From an uncultured Desulfomonile sp. (GTDB lineage: Bacteria > Desulfobacterota > Desulfomonilia > Desulfomonilales > Desulfomonilaceae), in NCBI GenBank assembly GCA_903952205.1, contig CAJBEZ010000105.1:1-64000 (forward strand): DNA of 64,000 bases, written 5' to 3'. Numbering within the stretch: the first letter of the stretch is position 1; each line of letters opens with the position of its first letter. The position numbers were made by a program, and so were the translations under genes. Below are positions 47,605 through 59,386 of the stretch, piece after piece. The notes beneath the pieces were generated by a model, which was not told the DNA's origin, ran no database searches, and saw only the letters and a program-made list of their open reading frames with translations.

Positions 47605-47754
47605 ATGAAAAATATTTACGCTGAATCAAAAAATATGCTTGTAGGGCAAAAAGGCGTTTTAAACGCCGGGAATAAGACTGAGTCGGGTTTTCTTTTTTAT
47701 TGGTGGCGCCACTCACCGATAACGGTGTGGTCTGCCCTGGATTTTTCAGGTTAA
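47605..47754 (+). CDS. Leader peptide of the trpE operon (49 codons, F/Y/W-rich)
   Basis: A 49-residue ORF begins at ATG 47605 and ends at TAA 47752-47754. It sits between the promoter and the intrinsic terminator in front of trpE. Its diagnostic part is GFLFYWWRHSPITVW: Phe29, Phe31, Tyr32, Trp33, Trp34 and Trp42. Clustered codons for all three aromatic amino acids match the operon, which holds both trpEG and five common-pathway genes. No strong Shine-Dalgarno precedes the ATG; an internal ATG at 47635 is an alternative start. See the attenuator entry for the RNA structures. Confidence 0.8.
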   Translation: MKNIYAESKNMLVGQKGVLNAGNKTESGFLFYWWRHSPITVWSALDFSG

Positions 47755-47808
47755 CTGTTTTTCGTATACAGAAAACAAGACCCACCTTCATGAGACGGTG
47801 GGTTTTTT
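47724..47808 (+). terminator. Attenuator of the trpE operon
   Basis: The terminator is ACCCACC (47780-47786) paired with GGTGGGT (47797-47803), loop TTCATGAGAC, followed by TTTTT. The competing anti-terminator strand is GGTG-t-GGTCT (47724-47733), which pairs with AGACCCACC (47778-47786) over 9 bp with one bulged T. A protector hairpin CACCG/CGGTG (47715-47727, loop ATAA) can occupy the anti-terminator strand. The Trp33-Trp34 codons end at 47706, 18 nt before the anti-terminator. A ribosome stalled there would disrupt the protector and favour read-through. Confidence 0.82.
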
Positions 47809-47832
47809 GTTTTTGGAGAAAGGGATCAAGCT

Positions 47833-55024: not shown

Positions 55025-55147
55025 ATGGGTTCTCAGATTAATAATACCGCTAAGATCAACGTCGAGTTTAATAACGGCGTGTATTTTTATTTTTGGCGAT
55101 ATTATTATTCGTCTGTCTACCCGTTGCCGGAGGGCTATAGAGACTAA
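55025..55147 (+). CDS. Leader peptide of the DAHP synthase operon (40 codons, Tyr/Phe-rich)
   Basis: A 40-residue ORF begins at ATG 55025, with AAGGA seven bases upstream, and ends at TAA 55145-55147. Residues 20-33 read YFYFWRYYYSSVYP: six Tyr, two Phe and one Trp within 13 codons. This is the classical composition of a Phe/Tyr-sensing leader, fitting an operon with DAHP synthase, pheA and tyrA. It lies between promoter and terminator, and its second half includes the anti-terminator strand. Confidence 0.9.
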   Translation: MGSQINNTAKINVEFNNGVYFYFWRYYYSSVYPLPEGYRD

Positions 55148-55214
55148 AAGAATTTAGACAGAAAGCAACAAGGCCATGGGTAGACAGCGAATCCGCCCAT
55201 GGCCTTTTTTATTT
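55113..55214 (+). terminator. Attenuator of the DAHP synthase operon
   Basis: The terminator is AAGGCCATGGG (55170-55180) paired with CCCATGGCCTT (55196-55206), 11 bp, followed by a T-rich run to 55214. The anti-terminator strand CTGTCTACCCGTTGCC (55113-55128) pairs with GGCCATGGGTAGACAG (55172-55187): ten perfect pairs, then G-U, T-A, one mismatch and three G-C pairs. A second TAGACAG at 55155-55161 can compete for the same strand. The Phe/Tyr/Trp run at 55082-55096 ends 17 nt before the anti-terminator, so stalling there should favour read-through. Confidence 0.88.
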
Positions 55215-55215
55215 T

Positions 55216-55242
55216 GGGCCTTGGGCGTAAAACCCGAGGCCC
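55216..55242 (+). promoter_or_regulatory. Second hairpin between the attenuator and the DAHP synthase gene
   Basis: GGGCCTtGGG and CCCgAGGCCC can form a stem around the loop CGTAAAA, immediately after the terminator T-run. It has no T-run of its own and lies 12 nt before the AAAGGAG of the next gene. It may stabilise the processed mRNA end or affect translation. Confidence 0.5.
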
Positions 55243-57379: not shown

Positions 57380-58249
57380 ATGATGAGTTCAAGAGTTTTC
57401 GAGAAATCCAATATCTGTGTTATCGGCGGAAAAGGCCGTATGGGCCGTTGGTTTGAAGCCCGTTTCAGAGAAGCGGGCATGAAGCCGGTGGTTTTGGATC
57501 TCGAAGATTTCCCTGTGTCGGAAAAGGTCCTTAAATCATTTGACATCATTTTTCTGGCTGTGCCAATCGGCGCGGTGGAAGATGTCATGGCCTCAATTGG
57601 TGGATACTTACGGCCTGATTCGGTAGTTATGGACATTACATCCATCAAGATCAAGCCATTGAGTTCTATGCTCAAGCATTCCCGAAGCGAAGTGATAGGT
57701 TCTCACCCCCTGTTCGGTCCTTCCGCCAAATCCCTTGACGGCCAGACGGTATTCTTATGCCCAGTAAGGACGAGCCTGTGGATGGAGCCTGTTTGTGCTT
57801 TCCTGGAGGCCGGCGGGGCCAAAGTAGTGGAAATTAAAGGAGAAAAGCACGACAGACTAATGGCGTGTTTTCAGACCTTGAGACATTTGATGCTGACGGC
57901 TCTTGGAAGAACTCTTATCGATATCAATGTTGAACCTGAGATTGCCACAGTTCTTGCGGGGCCATGGTTTGGTAGGTTGCTTGAAATGTTACGGCATCAA
58001 TCTCTACAACCGGCGGAGCTCTATGCTGATCTTGCAATCGAAAACGGGTTTGTCCCCGAGACACTTGAAGTTTTTCGGAACAATTTTAGTGAACTGGCCG
58101 CTTTTGTGTCCAATCGAGATAAATCAGGACTTTTAAATTTAATAGATGAAGTAGCCCAAACCTGCTCGAATGATGGAAAACTTTCCGAAGATCGCTTTTG
58201 GGGTTGGTGGCGCGACATGGGAGGAGATTCGCGGCATCCGGACGTCTGA
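57380..58249 (+). CDS. tyrA: Prephenate dehydrogenase with a Trp-rich C-terminal tail
   Basis: The ATGs at 57380/57383 give about 289 residues; an ATG at 57329 overlapping pheA is possible. The N-terminal NAD domain has ICVIGGKGRMGRWF and IIFLAVPIGAVEDVM. The catalytic region has IGSHPLFGPSAKSLDGQTVF and a helical dimer domain with ACFQTLRHLMLTALG. No chorismate mutase domain is fused. It produces 4-hydroxyphenylpyruvate for Tyr. The last residues read RFWGWWRDMGGDSRHPDV. This Trp cluster and the codons after it are the sensing and switching parts of an attenuator for trpD (see the next entry). Confidence 0.93.
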   Translation: MMSSRVFEKSNICVIGGKGRMGRWFEARFREAGMKPVVLDLEDFPVSEKVLKSFDIIFLAVPIGAVEDVMASIGGYLRPDSVVMDITSIKIKPLSSMLKHSRSEVIGSHPLFGPSAKSLDGQTVFLCPVRTSLWMEPVCAFLEAGGAKVVEIKGEKHDRLMACFQTLRHLMLTALGRTLIDINVEPEIATVLAGPWFGRLLEMLRHQSLQPAELYADLAIENGFVPETLEVFRNNFSELAAFVSNRDKSGLLNLIDEVAQTCSNDGKLSEDRFWGWWRDMGGDSRHPDV

Positions 58250-58318
58250 CTCAAAGACCGAAACAATAAGACTACAGAAGGCCGTGAATCGAAATTCCAC
58301 ATGATTCACGGCCTTTTT
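58199..58318 (+). terminator. Attenuator of trpDCFBA with its Trp-sensing codons inside tyrA
   Basis: The terminator is GGCCGTGAATC (58280-58290) paired with GATTCACGGCC (58303-58313), 11 perfect pairs, then TTTTTATTTT. The anti-terminator strand GATTCGCGGC (58226-58235), within the tyrA codons D-S-R-H, pairs fully with GCCGTGAATC (58281-58290) with a single G-U. A protector stem CGCGA (58211-58215) / TCGCG (58229-58233) starts right after the Trp codons. Trp codons TGG lie at 58199, 58205 and 58208; the last ends 16 nt before the anti-terminator. The tyrA stop is at 58247-58249. No separate leader ORF is present. Confidence 0.8.
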
Positions 58319-58348
58319 ATTTTATGAAATTAAAGAATGGAGGCAAAA

Positions 58349-59386
58349 ATGATTCAGGAATCTATTGAAAAGGCGGTATCGGGAATAAATATCCCTGAGG
58401 CCCAAATGATTGAGACTATGGAAGAGATCATGGAAGGAAAGGCGACTCAAGCCCAGATTGGCGCTCTACTGGTAGCGTTACGAATGAAGGGTGAGACCGT
58501 GGACGAGATAACCGGCGCTGCACGGGTAATGCGATCCAAGAGCGCTCAGATTCCTTACATCCTCAAGGATGGAGAATTTCTTATAGACACCTGCGGAACC
58601 GGGGGGGACTGTTCAAACACATTCAACGTGTCCACTACGGCGGCGTTTGTGGCTGCAGGAGCTGGAGTAAAGATCGCAAAGCATGGAAATAGGTCGGTCT
58701 CGAGCAAGTGCGGGAGCGCAGACCTGATGGAAGCGCTTGGGTTGCCTTTGGATCTGACGCCTGAACAGGTCGCCCTGTGTATACAGGAGGTTGGTATAGG
58801 TTTTTTGTTCGCCCCCGTGATGCACAAAGCGATGAAGCATGCTATAGGACCGCGTCGGGAAATTGGGTTACGCACAATTTTTAATCTCCTGGGACCTCTG
58901 ACTAACCCAGCCGGGGCTCAGGTTCAGGTCATGGGGGTCTATGACGATCAGATGGTAGAACCACTTACTCATGTGATTGCCCGCCTGGGTGTTAAGAAAG
59001 CTTTTGTAGTGCATGGCCACGGGGGACTCGATGAAATAAGCCTAAGCGGTCCAACTCGTATGGGGACGGCCCAGGACGGCGAGGTCTCCTTCAGCTACAT
59101 GGATCCTTCAGATTTTGGAGTCCAAGCCAGACCTTCCTTTGGGATTGCAGGCGGCAACGCAAAAGAAAATGCGGAGCTGACCAGGTCCGTTCTCAACGGA
59201 GATCCTGGTGAGCACAGAGACATGTCGCTTGTTAACGCCGCTGCCGCTCTGGTAGCCGCTGAAAGGGCGGCGACATTCATAGAGGGCATGTCTCTCGCAG
59301 CCTATTCAATCGATTCAGGGGCAGCCAGGAGAAAATTGGAACATCTTATCAAATTCGCCCGCCTGCTCAAGGACGGAGGGCACTAA
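58349..59386 (+). CDS. trpD: Anthranilate phosphoribosyltransferase
   Basis: The ATG at 58349 is five bases after GGAGG; the ATG at 58337 overlaps that site. The product has about 345 residues with DTCGTGGDCSNTFNVSTTAA near 82-101 (PRPP site). KHGNRSVSSKCGSADLMEAL, APVMHKAMKHAIGPRREIGL, RTIFNLLGPLTNPAG and HGHGGLDEISLSGPT follow. It transfers a phosphoribosyl group to anthranilate. It is not fused to TrpG. First gene after the tyrA-embedded attenuator. Confidence 0.97.
   Translation: MIQESIEKAVSGINIPEAQMIETMEEIMEGKATQAQIGALLVALRMKGETVDEITGAARVMRSKSAQIPYILKDGEFLIDTCGTGGDCSNTFNVSTTAAFVAAGAGVKIAKHGNRSVSSKCGSADLMEALGLPLDLTPEQVALCIQEVGIGFLFAPVMHKAMKHAIGPRREIGLRTIFNLLGPLTNPAGAQVQVMGVYDDQMVEPLTHVIARLGVKKAFVVHGHGGLDEISLSGPTRMGTAQDGEVSFSYMDPSDFGVQARPSFGIAGGNAKENAELTRSVLNGDPGEHRDMSLVNAAAALVAAERAATFIEGMSLAAYSIDSGAARRKLEHLIKFARLLKDGGH

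Follow-up and report, generated by a model that had tools for sequence, protein, structure and literature searches.

INTRODUCTION

To our knowledge, leader peptides are treated as dispensable mini-ORFs, and searches for attenuators cover only intergenic space or short ORFs. A 1:2 protector hairpin is common among trp-type attenuators, but the mechanism does not need one. In Escherichia coli, rph-pyrE responds to pyrimidine nucleotide (uracil/UTP) supply via transcription-translation coupling, and we know of no sensor codons and no antiterminator within rph. The classical trp attenuation mechanism (PMC1183508), as represented by E. coli trpL and Rfam family RF00513, shares with the locus described here tandem Trp codons, an antiterminator and a terminator that exclude each other, a stop codon that places the ribosome over strand 2, and downstream trp genes. 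What rph-pyrE shares with it is a full structural gene as the leader and a stop codon whose position relative to the terminator matters (PMC2784333). In Chlamydia trachomatis ytgCR, likewise, a structural gene contains consecutive Trp codons that render the transcription downstream Trp-dependent (PMC7755916). Genomic proximity of tyrA to the trp operon, as well as attenuators of tyrA supra-operons, has been noted for Desulfovibrio and others (PMC1173090). A published terminator-based survey of attenuators covered intergenic regions and ORFs of <200 nt (PMC2965389).

Here, we describe the junction of tyrA and trpD in a 64,000-nt stretch of DNA from an uncultured Desulfomonile sp. (the window). 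A sequence-only reading had proposed that this junction is an attenuator of trpDCFBA with the C-terminus of TyrA as its leader peptide, and all but one of the sequence tests suggested in that reading agreed with it, as does a counterpart in a sister family. The 3' end of tyrA is very probably a ribosome-mediated attenuator of trpDCFBA, in which the unstructured tail of TyrA, acquired by in-frame fusion of a trp leader ORF, acts as the leader. The case is built on the anatomy of the junction, its conservation, a nucleotide-level constraint on the tail, predicted alternative folds, and a stand-alone counterpart at the same junction.

RESULTS

The tyrA-trpD junction lies within an aromatic supra-operon

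The supra-operon is encoded on the + strand of the window. Its first segment consists of a Trp leader followed by trpE, trpG, aroA, aroE, aroKB, aroC, and aroQ. The second segment opens with a Phe/Tyr leader and continues with the DAHP synthase gene, pheA, and tyrA, after which come the putative attenuator element and then trpD, trpC, trpF, trpB, and trpA. Pfam assignments were made for seven proteins of the supra-operon. The tyrA gene (57380–58249, + strand), called from its ORF and the Pfam domains PDH_N and PDH_C, encodes a prephenate/arogenate dehydrogenase of 289 amino acids, and its last 16 codons appear to double as a Trp leader peptide. The first gene of the segment under the proposed control is trpD (58349–59386, + strand), and trpC, trpF, trpB, and trpA extend behind it to 62858. 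No match to the TrpR family was found in the window's genome.

Two classical stand-alone leaders in the same supra-operon served as sibling controls. The Trp/aromatic leader ORF before trpE (47605–47754, + strand) contains FYWWRHSPITVW internally, ends in FLFYWWRHSPITVWSALDFSG at its stop codon, and is followed by a terminator at 47777–47806. The Phe/Tyr leader ORF before the DAHP synthase gene, pheA, and tyrA (55025–55147, + strand) contains FYFWRYYYSSVY, ends in VYFYFWRYYYSSVYPLPEGYRD at its stop codon, and is followed by a terminator at 55170–55206. In the sister genomes, both leaders and their terminators likewise occur wherever the contigs extend over them. The region of the trpE leader (window 47695–47811) matches Rfam Trp_leader RF00513 with 24 bits, under the 41-bit cutoff, and Rfam thus misses a clear Trp attenuator at this leader. 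Directly 3' of the Phe/Tyr leader terminator and 5' of the DAHP synthase gene is a second GC-rich hairpin with a weak T-run (55216–55242).

The 3' end of tyrA combines Trp codons with strands complementary to a terminator region

Direct reading of the sequence confirmed the Trp-rich tail of tyrA, its position, and the presence of a terminator before trpD. The C-terminus of TyrA is W-G-W-W-R-D-M-G-G-D-S-R-H-P-D-V, and the 3' end of the gene reads TTT TGG GGT TGG TGG CGC GAC ATG GGA GGA GAT TCG CGG CAT CCG GAC GTC TGA. The candidate Trp sensor codons, TGG GGT TGG TGG (58199–58210, + strand), encode W274, W276, and W277, with the TGG codons at 58199–58201, 58205–58207, and 58208–58210. Given the Trp frequency of the operon, three Trp residues within the final 20 residues have a probability of ~1.4e-4; every other gene of the operon has at most two.

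Strand 2 of the predicted antiterminator, GATTCGCGGC (58226–58235, + strand), lies inside tyrA codons and begins 15 nt after the end of the last TGG. It pairs with GCCGTGAATC (58281–58290) at 10/10 positions, one of which is a G-U pair. A second antiterminator strand, GTCTG (58244–58248, + strand), runs from the final Val codon into the stop codon of tyrA (TGA, 58247–58249); its GTCT pairs with AGAC at 58269–58272 (+ strand), both in the RNAalifold consensus and in single folds of seven genomes of the genus. The AGAC is conserved within an otherwise drifting linker.

The intrinsic terminator (58278–58315, + strand) is a hairpin of 13 bp with a 12-nt loop, and its stem is invariant in 7/7 genomes. 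Its 5' arm, AAGGCCGTGAATC (58278–58290), includes antiterminator strand 3 (58281–58290); its 3' arm is GATTCACGGCCTT (58303–58315), and the U-run occupies 58314–58318. The earlier description of a terminator with a T-run was correct, although the stem had been given as 11 bp. A pattern scanner missed this terminator because the 12-nt loop is above the scanner's limit. Downstream, trpD is preceded by the ribosome-binding site GGAGG (58339–58343, + strand) and starts with ATG at 58349. Rfam RF00513 has no match at 58199–58318. A Shine-Dalgarno-like sequence, GGAGGAG (window 58220–58226), occurs in the tyrA tail just 5' of strand 2 and might slow the ribosome; the run is present in 6/7 genomes of the genus, and the remaining one has AAGGAG.

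The tail lies outside the TyrA fold and is constrained at the nucleotide level

The Pfam PDH_C domain ends at TyrA residue 255. When TyrA is modeled using AlphaFold, the mean pLDDT is 86.7, with values <50 for residues 266–289; these tail residues are predicted to be unstructured and to lie outside folded TyrA. A TyrA profile search of 395 genomes of the phylum matched 207, and among the matches listed, only members of the genus reach the last profile positions, which correspond to part of the tail. This comparison sets aside a few read-through matches with internal stops. The domain boundary, the pLDDT values, and the lack of a match from outside the genus among those listed all agree with the expectation that the tail lies outside the conserved fold.

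The genus set comprised the window's genome and six others (G001–G006; records L032–L037, metagenome-assembled genomes titled Desulfomonile tiedjei isolate, Deltaproteobacteria, or Syntrophaceae bacterium). All seven carry the tail, the terminator, and trpD ~100 nt behind tyrA. Members of the family in which trpD instead follows trpE/trpG lack the tail. The prediction that the tail occurs only where trpD follows thus held. Because the seven genomes form one clade, the association of tail and trpD counts as one evolutionary event.

The TyrA proteins of the six relatives are 53–76% identical to that of the window. TGG TGG is shared by 7/7 genomes and the first TGG by 6/7, and the peptide WWRDxGGDSRH is conserved in the genus. 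At invariant degenerate residues, the codon itself is invariant at 7/9 positions in the tail versus 6/87 in the TyrA body (Fisher P = 4.6e-6). Invariant third codon positions make up 62% in the tail versus 11% in the body. No other 16-codon window of tyrA is as conserved as the tail, and only 2 of the 25 residues preceding the tail are invariant. Judged from these codon comparisons, the freezing of the tail is a constraint on RNA and not only on protein.

Beyond the stop codon, the linker to the terminator drifts with the exception of AGAC, and the GTCT and AGAC strands are both invariant; the longer pairing GTCTG:CAGAC is found in 5/7 genomes. In strand 2, a C replaces the window's G in 5/7 genomes, which leaves one internal C-U mismatch. 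In four of these five, the mismatch is partly offset by a helix extension of 2–3 bp on the other side, and the pairing score is kept. The relatives have a stop-to-stem distance of 24–26 nt and a variable stem foot.

Antiterminator and terminator are predicted as alternative folds

We folded the transcript up to the 5' arm of the terminator with a modeled ribosome, the edges of which are an assumption (for the stalled state, the edge was placed 13 nt 3' of the first nucleotide of the second codon in TGG TGG). With the ribosome stalled, the antiterminator fold is predicted in 7/7 genomes, at −16.9 to −19.5 kcal/mol. Once the ribosome is moved to the stop codon, this stretch loses its predicted structure (~0 kcal/mol), and the terminator, which has a folding energy of −22 to −25 kcal/mol by itself, is then free to form. 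The ten-base pairing of 58226–58235 with the terminator's 5' arm, which the sequence-only reading had pointed out, is real, with one of the ten pairs being G-U, and it goes beyond what shuffled sequences provide: dinucleotide shuffles of the codons 3' of the last TGG reached the observed pairing score in 0.15–0.65% of cases for 6/7 genomes and in 2.75% for the seventh. The RNAalifold consensus contains the GTCT:AGAC helix across the tyrA stop together with the long 2:3 helix, and we regard the former (GUCU:AGAC in the RNA) as a probable part of the antiterminator.

A protector stem had also been proposed to begin right after the Trp codons. Of the seven genomes, only that of the window and the one closest to it have such a 1:2 stem; RNAalifold found no shared 1:2 structure across the genus, and we rejected the stem as a conserved part of the element. 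Since there is no shared protector, termination without translation is not ensured, and a stalled or absent ribosome should give read-through.

Measured against trp-type ribosome-mediated attenuators as a class, the element has the regulatory codons, the downstream trpDCFBA, and the terminator, and it is predicted to have a mutually exclusive antiterminator that is exposed on stalling and masked when the ribosome is at the stop codon. It has neither a conserved 1:2 protector hairpin nor a short dedicated ORF with its own start.

A stand-alone Trp leader occupies the same junction in a sister family

In the sister family f17, probably Desulfarculaceae, a short W-rich ORF that has its own start and ribosome-binding site lies 3' of tyrA (identified by profile match), and a terminator and trpD come after it. 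The loci with stand-alone leaders are L088–L096 and L116–L121, and the W-rich ORF with its terminator is present at the tyrA-trpD junction at 13 loci. The gene order, DAHP synthase-pheA-tyrA-leader-trpD, is that of the window, and trpD is 57–66% identical. Leader peptides of this family include MQLGTSWRWWRIRFPGRPRAAVV, MFATCWRYWWWYEDRSGPPALAR, and MPNQTCRRNWWWPTQAMGPCAVGV, each ending at a stop codon, and MLQHTLWRGWWRADAGRPPGRG, which runs to a contig end.

The terminators are also alike. The arms are GGCCGTGGACC and GGTTCACGGCC at most f17 loci versus GGCCGTGAATC and GATTCACGGCC in the genus, with 9/11 and 10/11 letters equal. Position 10 of the terminator is a C-G pair in 13/13 f17 loci and a T-A pair in 7/7 genomes of the genus, such that both sides have changed. 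Compensating changes had been expected in the pairing strands; inside the genus, that one letter of strand 2 aside, the strands are invariant, and the compensated pair between the two families is a terminator pair.

The f17 leader and the genus tail thus have in common the gene junction, a W-rich peptide, near-identical terminator arms, and the direction, whereas the f17 leader has its own start codon and ribosome-binding site and often its own promoter-like sequence. We base the homology of tail and leader on their position, the Trp motif, and the sequence of the terminator, as peptides this short do not allow proof by sequence comparison. At L088, only 15 nt separate the tyrA stop from the leader ATG, the two being in frame with each other, which makes this arrangement a plausible pre-fusion state. 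At least two f17 genomes have tandem Trp leaders between tyrA and trpD, at L134 (G208) and L088 (G385). The second leader, with its own terminator, lies between the first leader and trpD and ends in GVWGWWWRSAAGEVCPR at L134 and in IIAWRWWRFCGQRSVPP at L088, in each case before a stop codon. In the second leader of L134, GGTCTGCCC faces GGGCAGACC, with a GGTCTG:CAGAC motif as in the genus helix over the tyrA stop.

A conserved GTATAC palindrome (within TTTTTGTATACAATTTT or GGTATACTGTATACAAA) lies in the gap between tyrA and the stand-alone leader, 15–60 nt 5' of the leader ATG, at L116, L118, L089–L091, L093, L096, L119, and L120; it does not occur in the fused genus. The GTATAC region looks like a promoter with an operator.

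The distribution of the element points to an in-frame fusion

In a tree of TyrA, the genus forms one clade (97/91), and f17 forms another together with f110_G465 (98/95). The rest of the window's family, with f109_G464, adjoins f17, bar one long unplaced branch. Readable members of this family outside the genus have DAHP synthase-pheA-tyrA without trpD. Their trpD lies behind trpE, with or without trpG, and at these ordinary trpE-(trpG)-trpD junctions, no attenuator was seen.

We ran a degenerate pattern of the whole attenuator on the 395 phylum genomes, with a reversed control. It matched the genus, two f17 genomes, L155, and L165 (family f38); the other matches were at the chance level of the reversed control, and this pattern found no independent fusion in the 395 genomes. 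L155 (G292) and L165 (G077), from other families, are stand-alone Trp leaders with GGCCGTG..CACGGCC terminators, and the L155 leader stands before trpE.

Collectively, the comparison with f17 suggests that the element arose when an ordinary trp leader ORF became fused in frame to the 3' end of tyrA, a direction of change that we infer. The stand-alone leader in the sister family gives a clear evolutionary path to the fusion. The tyrA-leader-trpD junction may be ancestral or may have moved by transfer, and the stand-alone and fused states occupy the same junction.

DISCUSSION

From this anatomy, we infer that ribosome stalling and transcription termination at the junction depend on Trp. A shortage of charged tRNA-Trp would make the ribosome that is completing TyrA stall at TGG TGG (58205–58210), and the stall would free 58226–58235 and 58244–58248 to pair with 58281–58290 and 58269–58272, respectively. 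The antiterminator would form, and RNA polymerase would read into trpD. When Trp is ample, the ribosome would reach the stop codon at 58247 and sit over both antiterminator strands; the terminator, which starts 28 nt past the stop and hence would not be covered, would form, and transcription would stop at about 58318. Terminators of amino acid attenuators stand >20 nt behind the leader, and a ribosome at the stop codon then does not repress them (PMC4824070), a rule that the 28-nt spacing between stop and stem fits. Unlike E. coli trpL, a gene end has no dedicated initiation that would synchronize ribosome and polymerase, and the response must therefore depend on their coupling along 870 nt; the lack of a conserved protector, too, goes with the location at a gene end.

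We consider it likely that the enzyme's own C-terminus is the amino acid sensor of the next operon segment, with each round of TyrA synthesis ending in a reading of the Trp supply that decides on transcription of trpDCFBA. The default for an untranslated or stalled transcript would be read-through, and together with the upstream Phe/Tyr attenuator, the element would form two gates in series, the first for Phe/Tyr and the second for Trp.

A simpler account, which we regard as improbable, is that a plain, leaky intercistronic terminator ends the aro-phe-tyr transcript, that an unseen promoter drives trpD, and that the Trp tail is a chance feature or has a role in the protein. The terminator is indeed strong by itself, and the stand-alone leaders of f17 often stand behind promoter-like or GTATAC sequence, such that a separate trpD transcript may exist elsewhere. 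However, the terminator stem is only 33 nt away from trpD, and no sigma-70-like site was found on the + strand from 57306 to trpD. Nor does this account explain why the codons of the tail are invariant or why the tail is complementary to the terminator's 5' arm, and an overt Trp leader stands at the same junction in f17.

Less probable still is control of the rph-pyrE kind, in which the terminator would respond not to an amino acid but to how far the last ribosome on tyrA trails RNA polymerase, with a close ribosome preventing termination. The end of rph translation is known to control the downstream attenuator in E. coli (PMC2784333), and ribosomes near a stop codon can repress terminators (PMC4824070). 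Such repression vanishes, however, when stop and terminator are more than ~27 nt apart (PMC4824070), and the distance of 28 nt here argues against this sign of control. The Trp codons, the conserved antiterminator, and the f17 Trp leader would also go unexplained.

We assign a slightly lower probability again to a nested leader, that is, an internal start in tyrA from which a separate short Trp peptide is made, the enzyme itself not being the leader. Four genomes do have in-frame ATG and GTG codons 31–35 codons before the stop. However, such a start is not conserved in the genus: within 46 codons of the stop, neither the window nor the genome closest to it has an ATG, GTG, or TTG in frame. No listed start is preceded, within 16 nt, by a clear Shine-Dalgarno-like sequence, and ribosomes translating tyrA cross the element anyway. 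Least credible of all is that the tail, with its conserved peptide, is a protein feature (for example, a peptide through which TyrA binds a partner) and that its match to the terminator arose by coincidence, since the tail is predicted to be unstructured, its third codon positions are frozen far beyond those of the TyrA body, and the conserved stretch runs on into the non-coding AGAC and the terminator arms.

The preferred reading, an attenuator of trpDCFBA within the end of tyrA, makes a simple prediction: swapping two Trp codons in the tyrA tail should uncouple trpD from the Trp supply. It would also mean that sensing codons can be the end of an enzyme, in which case annotation would miss such switches. 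In the open-access literature that we searched, we found no description of an amino acid attenuator that has the C-terminus of a full enzyme as its leader and acts in cis on the pathway of that amino acid. The sequence-only reading knew of no described case either; this stands for the exact form, but rph-pyrE and ytgCR are partial precedents. Neither of these two, nor the tyrA supra-operons noted for Desulfovibrio and others, combines an enzyme C-terminus as sensing leader with control in cis of the matching amino acid pathway. Compared with E. coli trpL and RF00513, the leader here is the C-terminus of a 289-amino-acid enzyme, there is no conserved 1:2 protector, and Rfam gives no match. In ytgCR, starvation leads to termination of ytgR and acts in trans on trpBA via the repressor, whereas here starvation is predicted to cause read-through in cis.
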